64,000 bases of DNA from Alphaproteobacteria bacterium (GTDB lineage: Bacteria; Pseudomonadota; Alphaproteobacteria; Rhizobiales; Xanthobacteraceae). Positions within the stretch are counted from its first letter, which is position 1, and every line of letters starts with the position of its first letter. Below are positions 23,935 to 49,476 of the stretch, in pieces. Made by a program: the position numbers and the translations under genes. The notes under the pieces were generated by a model. The model searched no databases, had not been told where the DNA came from, and saw nothing but the letters and a program-made list of their open reading frames with translations. The stretch lies in the NCBI GenBank assembly GCA_016869215.1, contig VGEP01000004.1, forward strand, positions 1 through 64,000, read 5' to 3'.

Positions 23935-25608
23935 TCAGTCTGACGGCTTCTCCTCCAGCGCGGCGAACGGCCCGGCCGCATAGACGGCGCGGCCGCCGAC
24001 TATCGTCATGAGCGAGACGATGGAGCCGATCTCGTCCACCGGCACGGTGAGGTAGTCCTTGTCGAGCACCGCGAGATCGGCAAGCTTTCCGGCCGCAAGC
24101 GAGCCGCGCTCGTGATCCTCGAACGTGAACCACGCGCTGCCTTGGCTGTAGAGCCGCAGCGCCTCGATGCGCGAGGGGATTTCCTCCGGCCCGCGGATCG
24201 GCACGCCGCCGACGGTCTTGCCATCGAGCATCCATTGCAGCGACACGAAGGGTGACGGCCACATCACCCGATGCGCGTCGGTGCCGCCTCCGACGTTCAC
24301 GCCCATCCGCAGCGCGCTCGCGATCGGCGGCGCCAACCGCGCGGCCTCGAGCCCGCGCTGGCCGAGGAACGCCTCGCCGCGGAAGAAGAACGCGTTCTGC
24401 ACCAGCCAGCCCATGCCCATCGCCTTCAGACGTTCCAAGCTCTGCGGCGAGGCGTCGTTGAGATGCGCCACCGACCAGCGCAGCGGCGCAAGCGGCGTCT
24501 GCGCGTTGACGCGCTCCAGCACACCGAGCAGATGATGCACGGCGCGGTCGTTGTGCCAGTGGAAGGTGGCGCCGAGGCCGCGCTTCGCCGCCCACGCCAG
24601 CACCTCATAGTGGCGCTGCTTCTGCTCGTCGGTCGGCGCGTCGTTGTTGTAGAGGCCCCAGGTGACGTTCTCGCCGATGCCGTTGAAGCGCAGCCATTCG
24701 TCGCCGAAGCCCATCGGCATGGCGGCGGTGATCGACTGGAAATCCGCAAGCTCGTGGCCGCGGCGCGGCGCACAGATGTTGTAGCGCACGCGGATCGTCA
24801 GGCCGCGTTCGCGCCAGACCTGAAACAGCGCGCGGTAGGCATCGAGCGGCATGTTGTAGCCGCCGGGATCCATCACGCCGGTCAGCCCGAGCGCGTTGAG
24901 TGAGCGGAAGAAGGCGCGCGTACCGGCCATCTGCTGCGCCATGTCCGGCGGCGGCAGGCGGTCGAACAATTCGCTGACGGTGCGGTTGTCGGCGAGAAGC
25001 CAGCCGGTCGGCTTGCCGTCCGCGCCGGCCTCGATCCTGACGCGCGACATCAGGTCCGCGTCGTCCGCGACCTTCAGCGCCTCGAAGCCGCCGGGCGACA
25101 GCAGCACGCGGGCGTAAAGCAGTTGCACATAGACGCGATGATCGGGGGCGGCGGCGGCGATCTCGGCCTGGGTCGGCAGGCGGTCCTCCGCGAACTGGCG
25201 CGGCGTCCAGCCGCCGGCGACCACAAGCCACGATCCCTTCGGCGCGACGGCGGCGCGTTCGCGGATGCGGCCAAGCGCATCGGAAAGCGTGCGCGCGCCG
25301 ATCCAGTGAACTTCCGTCGTGTAGGTCAGGCCGGCGCGGATGGCGTGGATGTGCGAGTCGATGAGGCCGGGGATGACGGTGCGTCCGCCGAGATCGACGG
25401 TGCGCGTGTTCGGGCCCGCCAGCGCGCGCACCTCGGCGTCGCTACCGAGCGCGGCGATGCGGCCGTTGCGGACCGCAAGCGCCTGCGCGAGTTCCGCGCC
25501 GTAGCGGACGATCTTGCCGTTGACGAGGATCGTGTCGGCGGGCTGGGCGTGAACCGCGCTCGCAGCCGCGAAGATCAGCGCGGCGCAACACGCGAGCCGC
25601 CGCAGCAT
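23935..25608 (-). CDS. exported amidohydrolase, YtcJ-like
   Basis: 557 residues with a signal peptide (about 1-21, ending VHAQ). The amidohydrolase TIM barrel shows DSHIHA after beta-1, later histidines in ATFHWHNDRAVHHLL and RWSVAHLNDASP, and the final aspartate in VNVGGGTDAHR. The composite N- and C-terminal beta domain includes GRTVIPGLIDSH and GKLADLAVLDKDYL. YtcJ-like proteins hydrolyse amide or ester bonds of unknown substrates. It is the last gene of a six-gene minus-strand operon; the start is six bases after the previous stop. Confidence 0.9.
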   Translation of the reverse strand: MLRRLACCAALIFAAASAVHAQPADTILVNGKIVRYGAELAQALAVRNGRIAALGSDAEVRALAGPNTRTVDLGGRTVIPGLIDSHIHAIRAGLTYTTEVHWIGARTLSDALGRIRERAAVAPKGSWLVVAGGWTPRQFAEDRLPTQAEIAAAAPDHRVYVQLLYARVLLSPGGFEALKVADDADLMSRVRIEAGADGKPTGWLLADNRTVSELFDRLPPPDMAQQMAGTRAFFRSLNALGLTGVMDPGGYNMPLDAYRALFQVWRERGLTIRVRYNICAPRRGHELADFQSITAAMPMGFGDEWLRFNGIGENVTWGLYNNDAPTDEQKQRHYEVLAWAAKRGLGATFHWHNDRAVHHLLGVLERVNAQTPLAPLRWSVAHLNDASPQSLERLKAMGMGWLVQNAFFFRGEAFLGQRGLEAARLAPPIASALRMGVNVGGGTDAHRVMWPSPFVSLQWMLDGKTVGGVPIRGPEEIPSRIEALRLYSQGSAWFTFEDHERGSLAAGKLADLAVLDKDYLTVPVDEIGSIVSLMTIVGGRAVYAAGPFAALEEKPSD

Positions 25609-25614
25609 GGCGAG

Positions 25615-26004
25615 CTACAGCCGGCGCAGCGTGCAGTTGGTCTCGACGTTGGCGGCGTTGGCCTGCTGGCGGCGCTGCACGCCCGCCTGCTGGTAGCCAG
25701 ACTTGTCGCACGACACCGCGACGTCGTCGGGCTTCACGTCCTTGTTGATGTGGCTGCGGTAGAGCCCGAGCGTATTGGTCTTGATCTCGACCGCCTCGCC
25801 GCCCTTGGGCTGCAGCACCACGCGCGCGTCGGACACCGGCACGCCGCGATGGTCGCGCACGAAGCCGAAATAGGCCGGGCCCCGGCCTTCGCTATCGGAC
25901 GCGGCGTCGTAGTCGTCGCCGCCGGCGAGCGCCGCCATCGGCAACGCCGACACCGGCAGCGCCAGCGCGGCGATCAGCGCCAATGCTCGGATATGGACCG
26001 TCAT
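25615..26004 (-). CDS. exported carboxypeptidase-regulatory-like domain protein
   Basis: 129 residues. Signal peptide about 1-27 (ending AALAG), then one Ig-like carboxypeptidase-regulatory fold: AYFGFVRDHRGVPVSDARVVLQPKGG and TNTLGLYRSHINKDV. Two cysteines (SCDK and ETNC) could form a disulfide near the C-terminus. The same fold forms the N-terminus of the two large haem-motif proteins upstream in this operon, so it may be a detached binding module or assembly partner. It is linked to its neighbours by short gaps. Function is unknown. Confidence 0.82.
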   Translation of the reverse strand: MTVHIRALALIAALALPVSALPMAALAGGDDYDAASDSEGRGPAYFGFVRDHRGVPVSDARVVLQPKGGEAVEIKTNTLGLYRSHINKDVKPDDVAVSCDKSGYQQAGVQRRQQANAANVETNCTLRRL

Positions 26005-26041
26005 GCCTGCCTCCGATTCATCGCCTTACTATAGCGCACCG

Positions 26042-26428
26042 TCACCAGCGCCAGAAGAACCGCAATGCGTAGATCAGCACCGGGATCACCGCCAGCGGCG
26101 CGATCCAGACCAGCGCCAGCGGAATCTTTCTGGTCAGGCTTTCCGGCAGCTTTGCGGCGATCAGGCCCAGAATGGCCGATCCCAGCAGCGTCGAGGCGGT
26201 CCAGCCGTACCAGTGCATGGCCGGGCCCTGGTCGCGCACCGATCGCGCGAAGCCGAACTCCACGCGGTTGGTGCCGGGGTGGTAGGTGAACAGCGGCAGG
26301 TTGCCAATTTCGCAGATCGTGTAGATCACCGGCGCCGCGATTGCGAACACCACCGCGAAGGTGCGGAAGGCGTAGGACTGCACGAGCGACGAGGACTGCG
26401 CCGCGGGCGTCTGGGTTGTCGTGCTCAT
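26042..26428 (-). CDS. small membrane protein, three spans, 128 residues
   Basis: Predicted helices at about 20-42, 75-92 and 103-124, with a polar loop TYHPGTNRVEF containing H50 and a second histidine H72 before helix 2 (MHWYGW). The loop is Trp/Tyr-rich. It overlaps the upstream membrane gene by four bases (26425-26428), so the two are translationally coupled. Histidines near the membrane edge could bind haem or metal, which is inference only. I do not recognise the family. Confidence 0.82.
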   Translation of the reverse strand: MSTTTQTPAAQSSSLVQSYAFRTFAVVFAIAAPVIYTICEIGNLPLFTYHPGTNRVEFGFARSVRDQGPAMHWYGWTASTLLGSAILGLIAAKLPESLTRKIPLALVWIAPLAVIPVLIYALRFFWRW

Positions 26429-26949
26429 GATCCGAACCCCCGCACGTTGTTGACGATGTGGCCGGCCAGGAAAATGTACCAGCAGAACGCGGCGAGCGTC
26501 ACGGTGAGCCACTTCCGCGGGCTGTCGTATTCGGGATTGCGCGCGTCCTTCCAGAACAGCCAGTAGACCGGCAGCAGACCGAGCCCGATAGACGCGAGGT
26601 GCTCCTTCAGCTCGAATACGCCCTGCGTCTTCCAGAAGCCTTCCTGCTCGATCGGGATGCGCACGTACATGCGGTACTTGGTGTAGATCCAGGCGCCGAA
26701 GAAGAATGTCACGATCCACAGCACGCAGACCGCGGCGGCATAGCCCGGCCCGTGCACGGCGCGAAAGCGCTCGGTGAAGCTAGGCCCGCCGGCAGCGGCG
26801 GCTTGCCGCATCGGCATCAGCACGGACGCCGCCTGATGCGTCAGCGCACCGAGCAGCGCCACCGCGAGCAGCGCGTGGAACGTGAACAGAAGGGTCCAAT
26901 AGGTGGTGACGTTGACGTAGTCGAGAATAAAGTCGGGCACGAGCCCCAT
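26425..26949 (-). CDS. membrane protein, four spans, histidine-bearing, 174 residues
   Basis: ATG at 26949 has GGGGAGG six bases upstream. Four predicted helices lie at about 18-40, 70-92, 115-134 and 147-166. Histidines sit in or at the ends of helices: H25, H38, H66, H117 and H164. This spacing resembles four-helix cytochrome b or SdhC-type anchors, suggesting haem b and quinone contact. No family name can be given. It lies 68 bp after the second large CxxCH protein and overlaps the next gene by four bases. Confidence 0.84.
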   Translation of the reverse strand: MGLVPDFILDYVNVTTYWTLLFTFHALLAVALLGALTHQAASVLMPMRQAAAAGGPSFTERFRAVHGPGYAAAVCVLWIVTFFFGAWIYTKYRMYVRIPIEQEGFWKTQGVFELKEHLASIGLGLLPVYWLFWKDARNPEYDSPRKWLTVTLAAFCWYIFLAGHIVNNVRGFGS

Positions 26950-27017
26950 CGCTGTCCTCCCCTTGCACCTCACATTCGGGCAGCGCCGTTCACCGCGCCG
27001 CCGCCCCTATGTGGCCC

Positions 27018-29129
27018 TCACCGCGCCAACGGATCGGGCCTGAGCTGGAACTTCACCACCTTCGGCCGCGTGCCCTTGCCGGTTTCCAGATGGAACGGCG
27101 TGCGCGTGCCGTAGGTCGCCCACACACCGCGTCCCTTCCACCCGGCACTCGGATCGTCGATGCGGCCGTCGATCCATTTCGCGTAGAAACCGAGCGGATA
27201 GGGTACCACGAAATTGAGCCACTCGTTGCCAACCAGCGCCATCAGCGACTCGTTGGCGTTGCCGGTGGCCCAGGGCACGTTGCGGCCGAGCCCGAACGTG
27301 TCGAACTGGTCGACCCAGGTGTAGTAGCTCGCCTCCGCGCTGCCGGTGTCGGTCACGCCCATCATCTGCGGACCGGGGAACGGATAGAGCGTCCAGCCCT
27401 CCGGGCAGTGCCGGCCGGTGGCGGTTTCCGGTCCGCGCAGCACCTTGCACTTGGAGCGGTCGAAGCGGCCCATGTGGCCGCTCGACAGCGGCACCCAGGC
27501 GATGCCCTCGCGGTCGATGTCGAAGCCGCGCGGGCCGTAGCCCGGGAACGGCGGCTCGTAGATTTCGGCAAGCGCGGTCTCCGACGGGTTCGGCCCCGGA
27601 TCGACGCGCACGATGTAGCCCGGGAAGGTCAGGATCGAGCCCCAGATCGTGCCGTCCTTCGGGTTGACGCCGATGCCGTAGAACGCGCCGACCACGCGCT
27701 TGTCCTTGGTCGGATCGACCGGCTGGTTCGGCTCGACCCATTCGTCGCGCTTGCCGTTGCCGTTGGTGTCGACGACGATCGGCGTCCAGCCTTGCGCCCT
27801 CGCCTCGTCGCCGGTCTCCTCGAACACGCGGCGGTTGATCCAGCCGACCACGCCCGAGCCCGGCCCGCCCTGGGAGAGCCAAAGCGTATTGTCGGCGTCC
27901 TCGGCGAACACGAGATGGTGGGTCTGGAAGCAGGTGCGGATCAGCGTAATCCTGCCGGTCTTGGGATCGAGCACCGAGACGTGCCGCGTCGAGCTTTCGA
28001 GCGGGAACACCCTCGCCGACGGATGGCTCGAACCTTTCCTGCAGAAATCGGGATTCTGCGGCGGGCCGACGCGCGACGTGAACCAGACCTGACCCTTCTC
28101 GTCGAACATCGGATTGTGCGTCGAAGTCTGGCTGTCCCAGATCGCCTCGTCGCCCCAGTAGGGCGAGGTCGAGAGCGGATCGGTCTTGGACGATTGCGTT
28201 TTGGGATCGCGCACCGGCATCCGGAACGACGACGCGCGGTGGTTCACCGGGTCGAGCACTGGAACGAGATCGGTCGAATTCTCGACCGCGCCGTAGATCA
28301 GCCCGTTGGCGTTGAGCGTCGGGTTACGCTTGTCGGTGACGGTGATGTCGTGGAGGTAGTGCTTGGGATCGGAGAAGTCCCACTGCGTGATGACGACGTT
28401 GCGCTCGCGCCCTTGCGGCCTTCGCGGATGCGCGAACGGCAACTCGCCCGCCGCGATCCGGTCGGTCCAGTCAGCATAGAGTCTCAGCGCGCGCTGGGTG
28501 TCGATGCGGCCGATGGACGTCGCCATGTTGTTCATGGCCTGGCCGGAGAGCAGCCGGCGCGCCCAGGCGTCCTCCGGCTTCAGGTCGGAGAACAGCGGCG
28601 GGATGGTGCGCGTCGCCTTGTTGCCGAGCGCGTGGCAGCCGTAGCAGCCGTTGGTCTTGGTGACGTTCAGCCACGCCGCCTGGCTGCGCACGTTGCCGAC
28701 CGGGAACTCGTCCTTGCCCGGCGTCTTGAGCATCGAATACCAGTAGATCGCCGGATAGAGGTCGGCCGCGGCCTGCGGCGACGGCGCGCGCTGGGCAGTG
28801 AAGTTCACCGTGCGCCCCGGCGCGCTGCGGACCTTGGCAGTGTCGGACAGGCCGTAGCCGCGCGCCCAGACCTCGTAATTGGCCTGCGGCAGTTCGGGAA
28901 TGAGGTAACGGCCGCGATCGTCAGTGACCACGCTCTTGATGTAGCGCGTCGGAAGATCGGTGGTTTCGGCAATCACCCAGACGCCGGCCTCGGGCCCGTT
29001 CGGTCCGGTGACAGTGCCGGCGATGTCGTTACCGGCTGCCTGCTGCGCCGCCGCAAAGCGTGGAACCGCAATCAGCTCCAAAACCGCAATCGAAACGAAA
29101 GCCGCCAGAAAAATCCGCCTGATGGTCAT
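27018..29129 (-). CDS. exported c-type haem protein with carboxypeptidase-regulatory-like domain and beta-propeller (paralogue 1)
   Basis: 703 residues from an ATG with GGAGG five bases upstream. Signal peptide about 1-28 (AAAQ). The carboxypeptidase-regulatory-like domain spans about 34-112 (GTVTGPNGPEAGVWVIAETT, YLIPELPQANYEVWARGYG). A single haem c attachment motif, CYGCH (C162-C165-H166), follows, with a candidate Met ligand in GQAMNNMAT. The rest (about 230-700) is beta-rich with repeated VWFTS, DNTLWLS, GTIWGS blades, like Vgb/NHL propellers, and one EF-hand-like DTNGNGKRDEW. Function is not named. It is a paralogue of the upstream gene. Confidence 0.88.
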   Translation of the reverse strand: MTIRRIFLAAFVSIAVLELIAVPRFAAAQQAAGNDIAGTVTGPNGPEAGVWVIAETTDLPTRYIKSVVTDDRGRYLIPELPQANYEVWARGYGLSDTAKVRSAPGRTVNFTAQRAPSPQAAADLYPAIYWYSMLKTPGKDEFPVGNVRSQAAWLNVTKTNGCYGCHALGNKATRTIPPLFSDLKPEDAWARRLLSGQAMNNMATSIGRIDTQRALRLYADWTDRIAAGELPFAHPRRPQGRERNVVITQWDFSDPKHYLHDITVTDKRNPTLNANGLIYGAVENSTDLVPVLDPVNHRASSFRMPVRDPKTQSSKTDPLSTSPYWGDEAIWDSQTSTHNPMFDEKGQVWFTSRVGPPQNPDFCRKGSSHPSARVFPLESSTRHVSVLDPKTGRITLIRTCFQTHHLVFAEDADNTLWLSQGGPGSGVVGWINRRVFEETGDEARAQGWTPIVVDTNGNGKRDEWVEPNQPVDPTKDKRVVGAFYGIGVNPKDGTIWGSILTFPGYIVRVDPGPNPSETALAEIYEPPFPGYGPRGFDIDREGIAWVPLSSGHMGRFDRSKCKVLRGPETATGRHCPEGWTLYPFPGPQMMGVTDTGSAEASYYTWVDQFDTFGLGRNVPWATGNANESLMALVGNEWLNFVVPYPLGFYAKWIDGRIDDPSAGWKGRGVWATYGTRTPFHLETGKGTRPKVVKFQLRPDPLAR

Positions 29130-29276
29130 CGTCGCCTCCAAAAGAGCCGGACGAAAAATCGCGCTCTTGCCTCTGTCCGGTAATAACCCCGGACGCGGCA
29201 CCGCCCTGCGGGCTTGCGCGAAAAATGACGGGCGCGGCCCAAGCCGCGCCCGCAATTTGCGTAACCGGGTCGCGGC

Positions 29277-31442
29277 CTACTTCGCGAGCGGGTTCGGCCG
29301 CACCTGGATCTGCACCGCGAGCGGACGCGCGCCCTTGCCCAATTCATTGAGCCATGGCGTGCGGTCGCCCGACGCGCTCCACAGGCCCCTGCCCTTCCAG
29401 CCGGCGTTCGGATCGTCGATGCGCGCGTCGAGGCCCTTGGCGTAGAAGCCCATGGGATACGGAACGCGCATCAGGATCATCTTGCCGTTCTTGAGGGCGA
29501 CGAAGCCGTCCTGAAGGTTGGCGGTCGAGATCGGAATGTTCTCGCCCAGGCCCACCGCATTGTGGTGATCGACCCAGGTGTAGTAGCTCGCCTCGGCGCT
29601 CGAATTCGGCACGCCGTCGAAGCCCGGACCCGGATACTTGTGGAGCGTCCAGCCCTCGGGGCAATGGTCGCCGGTGGCCTTCGGCCCGTTGAGCGGCGCC
29701 TTGCACTTGCTGCGGTCGAATTCGACCAGGTGTCCGGCCGAGCCCGAGCCCCAGAGCCGCCCGTCGGCGCCGATGTCGCCGCCGCGCAGGCCGATGCCCT
29801 CTTTCGGAACCGCGTAGAACTCGGAGAGCTTGGTCTTGGGATCGTAGCGCAGGAAGCCCGGCCGTCCGCCGAACACGCCGGACGTGTACCAGATCGAGCC
29901 GTCCTTCGGATGCGGCATCACCGCATAGGGGCCGGAGCCCGGGTTGAACCGCATGTCCTTGCCGTCAGCCGGCTTGCCCGGATCGGTCCACTCGTCGAGC
30001 TTGCCGTTGCCGTTCAGGTCGAGCACGAACGGATGCCAGCCGGTCGCCTTCTGCGCGTCCTTGGTTTCGTCCCAGGCCTTGGTGTTGACCCAGCCCGCAA
30101 CCTGGCCGGAGCCCGACAGCCACAGCGTATTGTCGGCGTCATAGCCGAACTGCGGATGGTGGGTGCCGAAGCAGGTGTCGATGAACTCGTACTTCTGCGT
30201 CTTGGGATCGAACATCGAAACCTGACGGCTGTTGACGTCGAGCGGGAAGATTTTCGCAGACGGATGCTCCGAGCCCTTCTTGCACCAGTCCGGATTCGGC
30301 CGGCCGCGGACCGTCGCCGCGAACCAGACCCGGCCCTGGCTGTCGAACATGCCGTTGTGGTTGTTGGCGCGCGTGTCCCAGAGCTGCTGCTCGCCCCAGT
30401 ACGGCGACGGCATGGTCGGCTTGACCGCGCCGGCGTGGCCCGGTCCGAGCGAGATCGGCATGTTCGGATCGCGCACCGGCATCTTGAAATACGTCACCGT
30501 GTGCGTCTTCGGATCGAGGATCGGCATCATGTCGGTGGAATATTCCGGCGAGCCGTAGAGCTTGCCGCCCGCATTGACCCTCGGATTGCGGCGGTCGGAC
30601 GAGATCAGGTCGTGGAGGTACTTGTCCGCCGTCGACCACTCCCACGCCGTGACGACGAGGTTGCGCTCCTCACCGGTCGGCCGCGGCGGGCGGTGCTTGG
30701 GCGTCTCGCCCTTGGCGACGCGCTCGGTCCAGTCGCCGAAATACTTGTACGGCACGCCGCCGAGCTGTCCGGCGATGCGGTTGGTCATCATCTCGCCCGA
30801 CTGGCCGGACGCGATGCGGCGCATCCAGGCCTCGGCGTGCGATTTGAATTCGCCGAGCTGCGCCGGAATGGTGCGGGTCGATTCCTGGCCGAGTTGATGA
30901 CAGCCGACGCAGTCGACGTTGTTCATCCGGTGACGCCAGGTATCGAACGTGATGTTCTTGGGAATGTCGCTACCGCCGCCGAAATCCTTCTGCGGCGGCA
31001 GCTTCATCATGACGTACCAGTAGATCGCCGGATAATAATGCGCCGCCGCCCGCGCGTTCGGCGCGACCACCGCGGTGTGGTTGACGATCTGGCCGGGCTT
31101 GGCCGTGACCTTCGGCGAGTCGACGAGGCCGTAGCCGCGCACCCAGACCCGGTAGTTGGCGACCGGCAGGTCGGGGATGACGTAACGGCCCTGATCGTCG
31201 GTGACGACGCTCTTGATGTAGCGGGTCGGCAGGTCGGTGGTTTCCGCGATCACCCAGACGCCGGCTTCCGGCCCCTTCGGCCCGCGCACCACACCGCCGA
31301 TATCGTCCTTGTCGATCTCGACCGTCGCAGCAGGCGCCGCGCCGCGCTTCTGCTGCGCGTCGGCCGGCACGGTCAACGTTACGGTCATTGCCGCAATGCC
31401 GATGGCGGCGGCGGTCGAATACAACGTCTGCCTGAGGGTCAT
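29277..31442 (-). CDS. exported c-type haem protein with carboxypeptidase-regulatory-like domain and beta-propeller (paralogue 2)
   Basis: 721 residues. ATG at 31442 with AGGGAGAG six bases upstream. Signal peptide about 1-30 (ADAQ). The carboxypeptidase-regulatory-like domain (about 48-125) has a block nearly identical to paralogue 1 (GPEAGVWVIAETTDLPTRYI). Haem motif CVGCH (C178-C181-H182), with candidate Met ligand in GEMMTNR. C-terminal propeller blades (RVWFAATV, NTLWLSG, GSIWYTSG, GRLWGSGS) and DLNGNGKLDEW. It begins the operon; a Bug receptor gene is divergent across 135 bp. Periplasmic redox or lyase activity is inference. Confidence 0.88.
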   Translation of the reverse strand: MTLRQTLYSTAAAIGIAAMTVTLTVPADAQQKRGAAPAATVEIDKDDIGGVVRGPKGPEAGVWVIAETTDLPTRYIKSVVTDDQGRYVIPDLPVANYRVWVRGYGLVDSPKVTAKPGQIVNHTAVVAPNARAAAHYYPAIYWYVMMKLPPQKDFGGGSDIPKNITFDTWRHRMNNVDCVGCHQLGQESTRTIPAQLGEFKSHAEAWMRRIASGQSGEMMTNRIAGQLGGVPYKYFGDWTERVAKGETPKHRPPRPTGEERNLVVTAWEWSTADKYLHDLISSDRRNPRVNAGGKLYGSPEYSTDMMPILDPKTHTVTYFKMPVRDPNMPISLGPGHAGAVKPTMPSPYWGEQQLWDTRANNHNGMFDSQGRVWFAATVRGRPNPDWCKKGSEHPSAKIFPLDVNSRQVSMFDPKTQKYEFIDTCFGTHHPQFGYDADNTLWLSGSGQVAGWVNTKAWDETKDAQKATGWHPFVLDLNGNGKLDEWTDPGKPADGKDMRFNPGSGPYAVMPHPKDGSIWYTSGVFGGRPGFLRYDPKTKLSEFYAVPKEGIGLRGGDIGADGRLWGSGSAGHLVEFDRSKCKAPLNGPKATGDHCPEGWTLHKYPGPGFDGVPNSSAEASYYTWVDHHNAVGLGENIPISTANLQDGFVALKNGKMILMRVPYPMGFYAKGLDARIDDPNAGWKGRGLWSASGDRTPWLNELGKGARPLAVQIQVRPNPLAK

Positions 31443-31577: not shown

Positions 31578-32546
31578 ATGGTACGGACGATTTGCATCGC
31601 GGCAGCGGGCGTAACGCTCATGGCCGCGGCAACCGCGCAGGCGCAGGATTACCCGACCCGGCCGATCGTGCTCGTGGTTTCGACCGCGCCGGGCGGCGGC
31701 AACGACATTATCGCGCGCGTGATCGGCGACCGCATGAGCCGCACGCTCGGCCAGCAGATCGTCGTCGAGAACCGGCCGGGCGCCGGCGGCACCATTGCCA
31801 CGCGCCAGATCGCCAAGGCCGCCCCCGACGGCTACACGCTTGGCATGGGCAACACCGGCACGCTGGCGCAGGGCCCGGCCTACTATCCCAATGCCGGCTA
31901 CGACCCGCGCAAGGACTTCACCCCGATCGGCCTGATTGCGAGTGCGCCGCTGTCGGTCGTGGTGCATCCGTCGGTGCAGGCGAAGTCGCTTGCCGAACTG
32001 ATCGCGCTCGCCAAGAAGGAGCCCGGCAAGCTCACCTACGGATCGGGCGGCGCGGGCACGCCGAATCATCTGACGGGTGTCATGTTCTCGAACGTGACCG
32101 GCGTGCACATCGTGCACGTGCCGTTCCGCGGCTCGGGCCCCGCGGTCGCGGGCCTGGTCGGCGGCCATGTTTCGATGATGTTTGCCGGCCTGCCGTCGGT
32201 GATCGGCAACATCAAGAACGGCATGGTGCGGCCGCTGGCGATGACCAGCCTGAAGCGCGCAACGGCGCTGCCGGAGCTGATCACGGTCGCGGAGTCCGGC
32301 TTCCCCGGCTTCGAGGCGGCGCAGCGCTACGGGCTGGTCGCGCCTGCGGGTTTGCCGCCTGCGATCGTCGCCAAGCTCAACGCCGCGCTGCGCGAAGCTC
32401 TCGCCAGCGACGACGTGAAGGCGAAGATTTCCGCCGACGGCGCCGAGCCGGCGCCCGGAACGCCGCAGGACTACGCCAAGGATATCGTCAGCGAAGCCGA
32501 CAAATGGGCCAAGGTGGTCAAAGACGCCGGCATATCGGCGAAGTAA
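31578..32546 (+). CDS. Bug-family tripartite tricarboxylate transporter receptor
   Basis: 322 residues with a signal peptide (about 1-23, ending TAQAQ). Family signatures are YPTRPIVLVVSTAPGGGNDIIAR, VVENRPGAGGTIAT, APDGYTLGMG, the pocket segment VPFRGSGPAVAGLVGGHV, and the C-terminal ESGFPGFEAAQRYGLVAPAG. It binds a carboxylated small molecule in the periplasm. No TctA/TctB permease genes are next to it, so it is an orphan receptor like many in Bradyrhizobium relatives. A class II aldolase gene follows 16 bp on. Confidence 0.92.
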   Translation: MVRTICIAAAGVTLMAAATAQAQDYPTRPIVLVVSTAPGGGNDIIARVIGDRMSRTLGQQIVVENRPGAGGTIATRQIAKAAPDGYTLGMGNTGTLAQGPAYYPNAGYDPRKDFTPIGLIASAPLSVVVHPSVQAKSLAELIALAKKEPGKLTYGSGGAGTPNHLTGVMFSNVTGVHIVHVPFRGSGPAVAGLVGGHVSMMFAGLPSVIGNIKNGMVRPLAMTSLKRATALPELITVAESGFPGFEAAQRYGLVAPAGLPPAIVAKLNAALREALASDDVKAKISADGAEPAPGTPQDYAKDIVSEADKWAKVVKDAGISAK

Positions 32547-32562
32547 CGGGAGGATCGCGTTC

Positions 32563-33285
32563 GTGGCCGACACTGCAATTCAATCCGCCGGTCCCGTGGA
32601 CCGTCAGCTCGTCGAGGACCTGGTCGCGGCAAGCCGCATCCTTGCGCACTACGGCGTGCTCGACGCCTGGGGCCATGTCAGCGCCCGGCATCCCAAGAAC
32701 CCCGACCGCTATCTGCTGTCGCGTGCGCTCGCGCCCGCGCTGGTGACGGCCGGCGACATCATGGAGTTCGACATCGACTCCAACCCGGTCGACCAGCGCG
32801 GTCGCCGCGTGTTCCTGGAGCGGTTCATCCACGGCGAGGCGTACCGCGCGCGGCCGGACGTGATGGCCGTCGTGCACAGCCACTCCCCGACCGTGATCCC
32901 GTTCAGCGTCACCGGCGAACCGCTGAAGGCGATCTCGCACATCGCCTCGTTCCTGACCCACGGCTGCCCGTGCTTCGAAATCCGCGACGTGGGGCTGACG
33001 CAGGGGCTATTGGTCACCAACAGCAAGCAGGGCGCGGCGCTGGCGAAGGTGCTGGGCGACCGGCCGGTGGCGCTGATGCGCGGCCACGGCAATCTGGTGG
33101 TGGCTCAGGACATCCCGCGCGTGGTGCACCGCGCGCTCTACACCGAGGTCAACGCGCAGCAGCTTGCCACCGCACTGTCGTTCAAGCGGCCGATCCGGTA
33201 TGTCGAGCCCGACGAGGCGCAAGACCCGGCGCGACTCGGCGACTCGTGGGACTTGTGGAAGCACGAGGCGCTGAAGGGGAAGTGA
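32563..33285 (+). CDS. class II aldolase/adducin-family protein
   Basis: 240 residues from a GTG with GGGAGG upstream. Fold signatures: ILAHYGVLDAWGHVSAR, a zinc site VVHSHSPTV (two histidines) and a later RGHGNLVV. Relatives cleave or epimerise sugar phosphates or decarboxylate aldols; the substrate is unclear. It lies 16 bp after the Bug receptor gene and may act on its ligand. The 3' end is convergent with the LLM monooxygenase. Confidence 0.88.
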   Translation: MADTAIQSAGPVDRQLVEDLVAASRILAHYGVLDAWGHVSARHPKNPDRYLLSRALAPALVTAGDIMEFDIDSNPVDQRGRRVFLERFIHGEAYRARPDVMAVVHSHSPTVIPFSVTGEPLKAISHIASFLTHGCPCFEIRDVGLTQGLLVTNSKQGAALAKVLGDRPVALMRGHGNLVVAQDIPRVVHRALYTEVNAQQLATALSFKRPIRYVEPDEAQDPARLGDSWDLWKHEALKGK

Positions 33286-33292
33286 GACCCCG

Positions 33293-34336
33293 CTACATCC
33301 GCTCTACCTTCGGCATCACGTCCGACACGAACAGCTTGAGCGAGCGCATGGCGTCGTTCATCGACATGGTGCCGAGGAAGAGATACGTCAGCAGGTAGTT
33401 GAAGCCGATCTCGGCGCACTGCTTCTCGATCTCGCGCAGCACGGTCGCGGGCGAGCCCGCGATCACCGTGCCCTCCTCGACGCATTCCTCGAAGTTCTGG
33501 CCGCGCACGTTCTTCATGCGCGCCTGCGTGGCCGTGACGCCGTGGCGGGCGCGCAGCCAATTGATGTTCTTCAGGTGTACTTCCATCGCGGGCTTGGCCC
33601 AGGCTTTGGCCTTCTCGTCGGTCTCGTCGACGAAGATGTGGCGCTGCACGCCGATGGCGACGCCGCCGGAAAATTCAGGCTTCGGATTGAGCGGCTTGCC
33701 GTGCTTGGCGAAGGCCGCGCGGAAGCTGTCGATGTTGGCCTTGGCAAAAGCATTGGGACCGAGGGTAACGAAATGCATTCCCTGCTCGCCGGCCCAGGTC
33801 GAGCCTTCGGCGCCGGACGAGCCGTACCAGAACGGCGGATAGGGCTTTTGATAGGGCTTGAGCGCGACCGGGACGTTCTCGAACCGATAATGCGGCCCCT
33901 TGTAGGTGAGCTGGTCGGCCTGCAGGCCCGCGCGCAGGCATTCGTAAGCGTCGATGAATATCTCGCGCGACTGGTCGTGCTCGACCTTGTGGTAGCGGAG
34001 CTCGAACGGCGAGACGCCGCGGCCGACGCCGACCTCCATGCGGCCCTTGCTCAGGTGATCGAGCATGCAGATTTCGTCGATCAGCCGCAGCGGCGACACG
34101 ATCGGCAGCAGATAGACCAGCGGCCCCATCTTGATGCGCGTGGTGGCGCGCGCGACCGCGCCCAGAAACACGCCCGGCACCGGCACCATGTTGAGCGGCG
34201 TCTGGTGGTGCTCGGCGAGATGCAGGCAATAAAAGCCGGTCTCGTCGGCAGCCTTGATGAACGAAAGACGCTCGTCGAACAGTTGCGCGAGCGGACGCTC
34301 GCCGTCCTCGATGTGATCGAACAACCCGATTTTCAT
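33293..34336 (-). CDS. LLM-class flavin-dependent monooxygenase
   Basis: 347 residues, bacterial luciferase-like fold: MKIGLFDHIED, HLAEHHQTPLNMVPVPGVFL, GRMEVGVGRGVSPFE and YGSSGAEGSTWAGEQGMHF. It uses reduced flavin and O2 on an unknown substrate, possibly alkanesulfonate- or hydrocarbon-type. The ATG at 34336 begins the fold; the 27-residue upstream extension has no family similarity. The N-terminus is not close to any obvious reductase gene in this window. Confidence 0.9.
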   Translation of the reverse strand: MKIGLFDHIEDGERPLAQLFDERLSFIKAADETGFYCLHLAEHHQTPLNMVPVPGVFLGAVARATTRIKMGPLVYLLPIVSPLRLIDEICMLDHLSKGRMEVGVGRGVSPFELRYHKVEHDQSREIFIDAYECLRAGLQADQLTYKGPHYRFENVPVALKPYQKPYPPFWYGSSGAEGSTWAGEQGMHFVTLGPNAFAKANIDSFRAAFAKHGKPLNPKPEFSGGVAIGVQRHIFVDETDEKAKAWAKPAMEVHLKNINWLRARHGVTATQARMKNVRGQNFEECVEEGTVIAGSPATVLREIEKQCAEIGFNYLLTYLFLGTMSMNDAMRSLKLFVSDVMPKVERM

Positions 34337-47428: not shown

Positions 47429-47683
47429 ATGAGCCTCTATGCGCTGCAGAAGCTGATCCGCGACGTCAATCGCGACGACAAAATGCGCGCGAGCTATTTC
47501 GCCGCGCCCGCGGACTTCGCCAAGGGTTACGAGTTGACCGAGGCGGAACGCTCGGCGCTGCTGGCGCTCGACCTGACCAGGCTCTACGCGCTCGGCGTCC
47601 ACGGCCTGCTGCTGCGGCCGTTCAGCATCCTGCACAAGGTCTCCGAGCCCGACTACCTGACGAAAATCCGGGAGAGCGCCTGA
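47429..47683 (+). CDS. LigA-like small subunit of extradiol dioxygenase
   Basis: 84 residues. The small all-helical alpha subunit fold is seen with YALQKLIRDVNRDDKMRASYF and LDLTRLYALGVHGLLLRPF. Its stop overlaps the ATG of the LigB-like gene (47683), the normal arrangement for protocatechuate 4,5-dioxygenase-type enzymes. It completes the active-site lid of the beta subunit. Confidence 0.85.
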   Translation: MSLYALQKLIRDVNRDDKMRASYFAAPADFAKGYELTEAERSALLALDLTRLYALGVHGLLLRPFSILHKVSEPDYLTKIRESA

Positions 47684-48513
47684 TGTCCATCGTGTTCGCC
47701 AGCGCCGGCAGCCATGCGCCAGGCATCACCGCATGGGCGGAAGCCGCACCCTCCGACCAGAAGCAGCGCCTTTACGGCGCCTACGGCCACGTCCGCGATG
47801 CGCTGGCGGCCAGCAAGCCTGACGTGCTGATCCTGCTCACCTCCGAGCATTGGGCCAACTTCTTCCTCGACCACATCGGCGCGTTCTGCATCGGCCGCGC
47901 CGAATATTTCGACGGGCCGGTGGAGCCGTGGCTGAAGGTGCCCAAGACCCGCGTGCCGGGCCATCCGGAATGCGCCGCGGGCTTGATCGAGGCGCTTTAC
48001 GCCTCCGACTTCGAGCCTAGCTTCTCGCATTCGATGGCGCTCGACCACGGCTCGATGGTGCCGCTGCACTTCCTCACCCCGGAGATGAAGACGCCGGTGG
48101 TGCCGATCATGTTCAACACGTTGGCCGCACCGCAGCCGAGCGCCAAGCGGTGTTTGGAGTTCGGCCGCGCCATCGGGCGCTTCGCGCGGTCGTCCAAGCT
48201 TCGCATCGCGATGGCCGCGACGGGCGGCCTCTCGCACGATCCGGGCGAGCGCAACCACGGCGTCATTTATCCGGAATGGGACCGGCAATTCCTCGACCAG
48301 ATGGCGCAGGGCCAGCTCGACCGCCTCGCCGCCTACACGACCAAGGACCTGCTGTCGAAGGGCGCGGGGACGATGGAGTTGCTCAGCTGGGTCGCGCTCG
48401 CGGGCGCGATCGAAGGCCGCAAGGGCGAGATCGTCGCCTACGAGGCGGTGAAGCCCTGGGGCACCGGCATGGGCGTGATCAAATTCCCGCTGCAGCCGGC
48501 GCTGGCGGCCTGA
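47683..48513 (+). CDS. LigB-like catalytic subunit of extradiol dioxygenase
   Basis: 276 residues. Fe(II) ligands: H11 in GSHAPGITA, H56 in SEHWANFF and E232 in TMELLSW. The catalytic histidine is in GGLSHDPGERN (H185). This is the class III extradiol type that cleaves dihydroxy aromatic rings between carbons 4 and 5 or elsewhere. Together with the upstream small subunit it forms a two-component enzyme. The exact ring substrate is not known. Confidence 0.9.
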   Translation: MSIVFASAGSHAPGITAWAEAAPSDQKQRLYGAYGHVRDALAASKPDVLILLTSEHWANFFLDHIGAFCIGRAEYFDGPVEPWLKVPKTRVPGHPECAAGLIEALYASDFEPSFSHSMALDHGSMVPLHFLTPEMKTPVVPIMFNTLAAPQPSAKRCLEFGRAIGRFARSSKLRIAMAATGGLSHDPGERNHGVIYPEWDRQFLDQMAQGQLDRLAAYTTKDLLSKGAGTMELLSWVALAGAIEGRKGEIVAYEAVKPWGTGMGVIKFPLQPALAA

Positions 48514-48528
48514 GCGTCAAGCGCCACG

Positions 48529-49476
48529 TCACGGACTCGCGTGCGAGATGAACGCCTGCGGCACCGGCGTGCCCCATTGCGAGTTCAAGCCGCGCTCGGC
48601 CGGAACGTGATTGGTCGGGTTGCGGCAGTTGAGCATGTCGCTGTCGGTCCAGCGCTCGTGAACGCGGCCCCAGGGGTCCTTCCAGTAGTCGTAGACCTGG
48701 CTGCCGAGCAGATGCCGGCCGACGCCCCAGACATGCTCGTACTTGCCGACACGCTTGAGATGCTCGTGACCCAGCATCACATCGTCGATGTTCTGCACCT
48801 CGAACGACACGTGATTGAGGCCCACCTTGTCGCTCTGGATGCAGACGAAGGTGTGATGGTCGACGAAATCCTCGCCGCGGTCGCAACGGTTGAACGTCGC
48901 AATCACGTGGTCTCGGCTGCCGGCGTAGATTTCGTCCGAGCACACGAAGCCGAACAGGTCCTTGTACCACTTGATGACCTCGTGCAGCCGCGGGGTCATG
49001 TGCAGGGCGTGCGCGATGCGCTTGACCTGCGAGGGGCCGGCGTCGAGCCGCATCAGCTCGCCGGCGCGGCGGAACTTCTCGTCACCCCAATTGAGCACGT
49101 TGCGCCGGATCGGCAGCGGCGCCAGCTCCGCCATGCCGCAGACTGCCTCGATCTGGTAGCCATGCGGGTCGGTGAACCGCACGCGCCGCCCGCCGCCGGG
49201 CTCGTCCATCTGCTCGACCGATGAGGCACCTTCGACCTGCGCAAGCTTGCTGAGCTCGTCGTCGCCGTCGACGTAGAACGCTATCCCGAGATATTTGGGT
49301 GGGCCCAGGTGGGTCACGTGCAGATGATGCGCGGGATCGGTGCCGCGCATGTAAAGGCGGTCGGCGGTGCGCTCGGATCGCACCAGTCCGAGATGGGTCA
49401 GGAATTCCTCCGCCCGATCGAGGTCCGGCGACTGCAATCGGATATAGGCGAGGTCTTCGACCTTCACGACCGACAT
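48529..49476 (-). CDS. VOC-superfamily extradiol dioxygenase (catechol 2,3-dioxygenase-like)
   Basis: 315 residues from an ATG with AGGGAGG upstream. Two VOC modules; the C-terminal one has metal ligands H156 or H159, H222 in LNHVSFEV and E274 in VHERWTD. The first module lacks a complete set, as in type I extradiol enzymes. It is convergent with the LigB-like gene, 15 bp apart, so the two ring-cleaving enzymes are not in one operon. Substrate unknown. Confidence 0.9.
   Translation of the reverse strand: MSVVKVEDLAYIRLQSPDLDRAEEFLTHLGLVRSERTADRLYMRGTDPAHHLHVTHLGPPKYLGIAFYVDGDDELSKLAQVEGASSVEQMDEPGGGRRVRFTDPHGYQIEAVCGMAELAPLPIRRNVLNWGDEKFRRAGELMRLDAGPSQVKRIAHALHMTPRLHEVIKWYKDLFGFVCSDEIYAGSRDHVIATFNRCDRGEDFVDHHTFVCIQSDKVGLNHVSFEVQNIDDVMLGHEHLKRVGKYEHVWGVGRHLLGSQVYDYWKDPWGRVHERWTDSDMLNCRNPTNHVPAERGLNSQWGTPVPQAFISHASP

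Follow-up and report, generated by a model that had tools for sequence, protein, structure and literature searches.

Exported haem-c-motif propeller proteins recur with an unnamed membrane protein pair in Xanthobacteraceae

We analyzed a 64,000-nucleotide stretch of the genome of a soil-type alphaproteobacterium (family Xanthobacteraceae; GenBank assembly GCA_016869215.1, contig VGEP01000004.1, positions 1 to 64,000), hereafter the window, focusing on six genes at positions 23,935 to 31,442. They encode two large exported proteins with a carboxypeptidase-regulatory-like domain, a CxxCH haem c motif and a beta-propeller (A1 and A2), two membrane proteins (M4 and M3), a small regulatory-like protein (S) and an amidohydrolase (AH). 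Comparison with relatives showed that the core of this arrangement is the M4-M3 pair with S, near a protein of the A family or of a distantly related family, B; A2 and AH are optional. We tentatively propose, with confidence a little short of even, that A and B proteins act as propeller enzymes in the periplasm and that their haem exchanges electrons with M4-M3, a membrane carrier common to them. The component parts belong to known types (haem c, the fold of virginiamycin B lyase, Vgb, and an amidohydrolase), and the combination and the membrane pair appear to be undescribed. A full-text literature search, with most subscription papers outside its scope, yielded no description of the protein family or the cassette that we recognised.

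Linkage of the gene families

For a linkage sample not selected through A, we used the 22 M4 loci that a search with M4 had detected across 149 genomes of the window's taxonomic family (23 search rows, one gene being split in two) and counted neighbours within 6 kb by hand. A wider set of 27 M4 contexts includes loci reached through A, which biases the share of A, and was excluded from the counts. Genes of relatives came from a simple codon-score caller, so that starts and small genes are approximate; seven duplicate loci, each a contig filed under two names and recognised by its length and the position of the locus, were removed before gene clustering, which covered 74 loci.

M3 adjoined M4 in all 22 loci, and S lay within 6 kb of M4 in 20, being missing near M4 in L177 and L180. 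In the genome of L177, S was found on another contig (L217) beside a B gene and a cytochrome gene. A was near M4 in 14 loci, B in 5 and either of the two in 18; AH and an NMT1-type binding protein were each present in 8. The latter two were mutually exclusive, never occurring together among the 22 loci (hypergeometric 0.009; relatedness is ignored in this and the following hypergeometric tests). The same place after S is taken by AH, the binding protein or B in several loci, as if this slot were exchangeable, and both the AH state and the binding-protein state (L038) occur within the window's genus.

Scanning named genomes turned up 40 loci that carry relatives of A1, including Bradyrhizobium, Microvirga and several metagenome-assembled genomes (MAGs; labels as filed). 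In a comparison of 61 loci (L034-L094, some of them duplicates), A together with M4-M3-S-AH was seen again in MAGs belonging to the genus of the window, in other genera and in one MAG labelled Betaproteobacteria (L081). The sequence-only reading of the window had named joint recurrence of the six families as the sign of a system. The core M4-M3-S with A or B does recur, but the six genes as a fixed unit do not, and we dropped the idea of an inseparable six-gene system, A2 and AH being optional in relatives. Separately, a locus filed as a Klebsiella pneumoniae MAG (L074, CAMDRJ010000088.1) bears A-M4-M3 and is probably mislabelled or misbinned.

Co-occurrence across genomes

Among the 149 genomes of the taxonomic family, A was present in 32 and M4 in 21, and every M4 genome also had A (21/21; hypergeometric 6.7e-18). 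By genus, M4 occurred in 10, all of them within the 15 A-bearing genera of 47 (5.8e-7). B was found in 21 of the 149 genomes, 20 of which had A (1.4e-15). High-scoring AH (E below 1e-200) was detected in 11 genomes, and G085 had an additional partial match (71% identity). Of the 11 genomes, G026 had neither A nor M4, and G112 had no M4. A class-wide draw of 337 genomes contained M4 in three and A in nine, all three M4 genomes falling inside the nine, and a phylum-wide search found A in 3 of 398 genomes. All A counts are floors, as the A candidates scored per genome were limited to 2 (phylum), 3 (class) and 7 (family). In these samples M4 was never seen without A, and A was often seen without M4.

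The M4 genomes of the class draw were the window's own and two from another taxonomic family, which is the best independent check on co-occurrence, albeit a single case. In this second family M4 and M3 were adjacent in all three loci, with S in two. Five of its genomes were searched for A, which was present in three (in one as a fragment only) and absent from two genomes of a sister genus, one of which, G575, was also searched for M4 with no match. Over 16 loci the distances of A and M4 were correlated (r 0.63, Mantel p 0.0002), a result that shared descent alone could yield.

The large haem-c-motif proteins A1 and A2

The description of A1 and A2 in the sequence-only reading, as paralogues of about 700 residues with a regulatory-like domain, CxxCH and a propeller, was borne out by profile matches, the invariant motif and a structure model of A1. 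The two are 52% identical over A1 residues 39-721 and are the only convincing A members in the window's genome, where three further matches had E values of 0.004-0.022 over 33-70 residues. Their N-terminal domains scored 29.8 (A1) and 30.8 bits (A2) against CarboxypepD_reg, slightly below the Pfam cut-off of 32.3. C178, C181 and H182 of A1, which form the CxxCH motif, were invariant in 30 of 30 aligned homologues, and the N-terminus of A1 is hydrophobic. CxxCH was likewise kept in all 73 members of at least 500 residues in the combined A/B cluster; the three members without it are fragments. M219 of A1 is likewise invariant in the 30-row alignment and might, as a guess, be a haem ligand.

An AlphaFold model of A1 built with 30 homologues (mean predicted local distance difference test score, pLDDT, 81; predicted template modelling score, pTM, 0.83) places the strands of the regulatory-like domain at residues 48-114 and helices carrying C178-x-x-C181-H182 at 130-261, followed by the propeller. 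This propeller-like body is closest in fold to Vgb (streptogramin B lyase; PDB 2z2n, 2qc5; PF24684): residues 261-715 aligned with Z 22.8 over 286 residues at 2.6 Å, and the four best chains were all Vgb (Z 22.4-22.8, 286-292 residues, 2.6-2.7 Å), about 3 Z above the next, unrelated propellers at 19.4. Thiocyanate dehydrogenase and nitrous oxide reductase were outside the 50 matches listed per A1 fold search, which does not imply their exclusion.

The sequence-only reading would have been contradicted by a match of the large proteins to a characterised enzyme with a simple role, and searches of Pfam, NCBIfam and PDB with A1 returned none. At E<=1, A1 and A2 had no Pfam match besides the small N-terminal domain, with none to a cytochrome c domain, to the Vgb_lyase profile (PF24684, cut-off 50 bits) or to the pyrroloquinoline quinone (PQQ) propeller domains (PF01011/PF13360). 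A1 had no NCBIfam match, and its best two PDB sequences (E 0.35 and 0.9) were judged to be chance; the 30-row A profile matched nothing in PDB at E<=1.

The B family and its relation to Vgb

B proteins are distant relatives of A, of about 545 residues with the same three parts and one CxxCH, and were found beside M4-M3-S in other genera; the window's genome had no B at E 1e-80. A profile alignment of A with B by hhalign gave 98.4% probability over 429 columns, spanning the regulatory domain, CxxCH and the greater part of the propeller. All four B proteins tested passed the Vgb_lyase cut-off (121, 91, 142 and 96 bits against 50) as well as the CarboxypepD_reg cut-off, and B thus matches Vgb by sequence. 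Vgb has a catalytic His270 and a Mg site in blades 6-7. The histidine of the B motif APHDV faces the histidine of EPHG in Vgb only within a segment of 3.9 bits, and hhalign aligns His277 of A1 with it. Profile alignment and the predicted fold mark A as a divergent relative of the Vgb-fold proteins that has a putative haem c domain attached. Copy numbers can be high, reaching six of type A and seven of type B in the genome G030, and tandem B pairs occurred in 5 of the 14 B loci fetched (L204, L207, L208, L209 and L210).

Several known systems resemble parts of this design. Vgb is not known to carry haem. It is a single-domain enzyme according to a published account (PMC8916777), in contrast to A and B with their regulatory-like domain and haem c motif. 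By the same account, the cylindrocyclophane alkylating enzyme CylK is also multidomain and built on a Vgb-like propeller, with hydrophobic residues replacing the Vgb active-site positions (PMC8916777). CylK differs in having a calcium-binding N-terminal domain and not haem c. The PQQ quinohaemoprotein dehydrogenases resemble A1 and A2 in plan and differ in that A1 and A2 have no PQQ-family match.

The membrane pair M4-M3

Neither M4 nor M3 matched Pfam, and NCBIfam gave only models far below threshold. The sequence-only reading had counted four spans in M4 and three in M3. A structure model of M4 does have four helices, at moderate confidence (pLDDT 66). A simple hydropathy scan missed one span in each protein, passing three in M4 and two in M3. 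His25 (25/25) and His164 (27/27) of M4 are invariant, and His38 (24/25) and His117 (26/27) nearly so. In the M3 motif GPxMxWYGW, P, M, W, Y and the second G were kept in 22 of 22 sequences and the first G and last W in 21.

The four predicted helices and four conserved histidines liken M4 to membrane b-type cytochromes, from which it differs in having no sequence relative or specific fold match; its profile found no PDB sequence at E<=1. In the model, His117 and His164 would be close to the outer side of the membrane, a position in which a haem b could take up electrons delivered by a haem c in the periplasm. Attempts to name M4 by fold were abandoned, as the matches were generic four-helix bundles, many of them designed; cytochrome oxidase subunit III chains were among them at the same unspecific level and were dropped.

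S, AH and other accessory proteins

S scored 26.0 bits against CarboxypepD_reg, weaker than A1 and A2 and below the cut-off, and carries two invariant cysteines, C99 and C124 (22/22). AH is a full-length member of Amidohydro_3 (PF07969; 270.2 bits against a cut-off of 29.7), which we take to be YtcJ-like, with a hydrophobic, signal-peptide-like N-terminus and no PDB relative at E 1e-10.

Two further small proteins were noted near these genes. One follows M3 in L177 (5656-6045), L178 (8809-9180), L184 (11032-11385) and L176 (by tblastn); it has a membrane-like N-terminus and two cysteine-bearing repeats (approximately C.D.D.VPYSA.C), and the L177 copy had no Pfam match. The other, with the motifs QPRHxKLxLAG and CNACH, lies near M4-M3-S or B in L176 (6524-7042), L181 (4552-4914), L185 (5468-6067) and L217 (11711-12088); its L176 and L185 copies had no Pfam match.

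Genomic neighbours of relatives

A cytochrome c gene lies beside B in L217 (by Pfam) and L206 (by eye). In L236 a gene for a PQQ dehydrogenase (Pfam, 300 bits) ends 95 bp before the A gene, as measured to the start given by the gene caller. This dehydrogenase, at 14933-19227 of L236 directly before the A gene, has a borderline cupredoxin-like C-terminal match. In L204, genes for UbiD and an FAD_binding_3 hydroxylase, presumably PobA-like, adjoin the B pair, and acylase-like genes were recognised by eye among the neighbours of relatives. A cluster of Bug-type receptors, named by eye, was present in 29 of the 74 clustered loci, a raw count uncorrected for the background frequency of Bug genes. 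The neighbours suggest a link to the degradation of diverse compounds and not to one substrate; the contexts were too varied for a substrate to be named from them, and that attempt was given up.

Proposed mechanism and alternatives

In the mechanism that we tentatively favour, A- and B-type proteins would be exported, each with one covalent haem c, and their Vgb-like propeller would bind and transform small molecules. The haem would give electrons to, or take them from, the M4-M3 pair, which may be an integral-membrane carrier, probably with haem b on the conserved histidines and a connection to the quinone pool. The small N-terminal domain of A and B is also present in S, which probably serves as a docking or structural subunit, and one M4-M3-S unit could serve several A and B paralogues. 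The slot genes (AH, alpha/beta hydrolases, binding proteins) may supply substrate or remove product. The sequence-only reading envisaged a periplasmic pathway in which a compound is oxidised or hydrolysed and its electrons are handed on to the membrane. The haem c motif, the membrane histidines and some cytochrome neighbours are consistent with this; the electron transfer itself we infer. A more specific version, in which the system is an undescribed periplasmic respiratory input whose large family of haem-c/Vgb-fold oxidoreductases, several paralogues per genome and each for its own natural or xenobiotic compound, feeds one dedicated, quinone-reducing haem-b complex of two subunits, M4 and M3, with S as adaptor, is possible, though we find it doubtful.

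If the proposal is true, the cassette would be a new electron-entry module for bacterial respiration, through which degradative reactions beyond the inner membrane would be connected with the respiratory chain, and a propeller fold known from antibiotic-inactivating lyases would gain a redox role. It also offers a testable set of two unnamed membrane families and a small adaptor, linked by neighbourhood and co-occurrence to haem-motif proteins.

Several observations weigh against the proposed electron exchange. A occurred without M4 in 11 of 32 genomes of the window's taxonomic family and 6 of 9 genomes of the class sample, and thus A can apparently work with other partners or none. Within the stretches examined, the Bradyrhizobium loci held A as the sole one of the six families, as did the Microvirga loci among the 61 compared. 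Four of the 22 M4 loci had neither A nor B within 6 kb, two of these (L176, L180) lying near a contig end. In the second taxonomic family M4-M3 stands apart from A, which is on other contigs, one of the three loci has no S, and the M3 motif is less strictly kept (GPPISWYGW, GPTMMYYGW). At the protein level, Pfam, fold and PDB searches gave M4 no haem b family, specific fold match or sequence relative; the A1 model holds no haem, and its propeller has no identified catalytic residue or cofactor. Vgb itself, in the account cited above, is a C-O lyase and no redox enzyme (PMC8916777).

Other explanations were weighed against the same evidence. M4-M3-S might be a maturation or assembly factor for A and B, acting in cofactor insertion, folding or membrane anchoring, instead of an electron carrier. 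Dedicated maturation factors are often encoded far from their clients, and M4-M3 can indeed stand far from several A genes (G782, G855), with M4 nested entirely within A genomes. The many genomes with A and no M4 indicate, however, that A does not generally need M4, and conserved membrane histidines are not required by a maturation role, which we consider unlikely. Similarly improbable is a role of A and B outside redox chemistry, as Vgb-fold lyases, lactonases or binding proteins; in that case the haem would be structural or serve as a sensor, and the membrane pair would be a partner in signalling or transport. The closest fold being that of a lyase, the Vgb_lyase matches of B and the NMT1-type genes near 8 of 22 M4 loci would all suit this, but the retention of CxxCH in every long homologue and the cytochrome or PQQ-dehydrogenase neighbours in some loci speak for a redox role.

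The large proteins could also belong to a known type of copper or quinone dehydrogenase and have diverged past recognition. PQQ quinohaemoprotein dehydrogenases are periplasmic and share the plan of propeller plus haem c, and thiocyanate dehydrogenase, defined by its fold and a three-copper site, is a further candidate. The latter came up through a published account (PMC9456337). Against such an origin, neither A1 nor A2 had a PQQ match in Pfam at E<=1, whereas the neighbour in L236 scored 300 bits, and the best of the listed fold matches were Vgb; we regard this explanation as quite improbable. That the genes are chance neighbours with no joint function is hardly credible: many genomes do have A without M4, but M4 and M3 were adjacent in every locus of both taxonomic families (22/22 and 3/3), and in the second family S was present in two of three loci and A in both M4 genomes.

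Layout of the locus and the hairpin after A1

All six open reading frames lie on the minus strand in the order A1, A2, M4, M3, S, AH (Table 1). From A1 to AH the intergenic gaps are 147, 68, -4, 37 and 6 bp, the M3 start codon overlapping the M4 stop by 4 bp, and these coordinates agree with the gene order, overlap and 6-bp gap first read from the sequence.

Table 1. Features of the six-gene locus in the window
Feature	Coordinates	Strand	Description
A1	29277..31442	(-)	exported, 721 aa
A1 parts			signal peptide; carboxypeptidase-regulatory-like ~47-125; predicted helical CxxCH (haem c) ~130-261; predicted Vgb-like beta-propeller ~262-715
A2	27018..29129	(-)	A1 paralogue, 703 aa, regulatory-like domain and CxxCH
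M4	26425..26949	(-)	predicted four-helix membrane protein, 174 aa, His 25, 38, 117, 164
M3	26042..26428	(-)	small membrane protein, 128 aa, conserved GPxMxWYGW
S	25615..26004	(-)	exported stand-alone carboxypeptidase-regulatory-like protein, 129 aa
AH	23935..25608	(-)	exported Amidohydro_3 metal hydrolase, 557 aa, optional accessory
GC-rich hairpin with T tail	29228..29253	(-)	between A1 and A2

The sequence-only reading took the six genes as one operon. A1 and A2 are, however, separated by a strong hairpin that resembles a terminator and ends in a T tail, and the transcriptional unit may therefore be A1 plus a unit of five genes. A GC-rich stem was predicted 3' of the A1 stop in all 11 stretches folded, hand-trimmed around the stem (the window, L084, L057, L073, L059, L079, L044, L041, L062, L186 and L038). 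Twelve intergenic regions were scanned for a T tail, the twelfth being the 34-bp gap of L085, which was not among the folded stretches; only the window and L038 had one. The stem suggests transcript processing or graded expression, and transcription may be split there. The hairpin was rejected as a conserved RNA, as the DNA aligned poorly and the z-scores ranged from -4.5 to -1.0 (window -1.26).

Upstream of A1, at 31620-34336, the window carries genes named by eye as a Bug-type receptor, a class II aldolase-like protein and an LLM-flavin-like protein; homologues of the latter two recur in 6 and 7 of the clustered loci, respectively. Farther away, at 47429-49476, genes resembling LigA/LigB dioxygenase subunits and a VOC-type dioxygenase were recognised by eye, which hints at aromatic catabolism encoded nearby.

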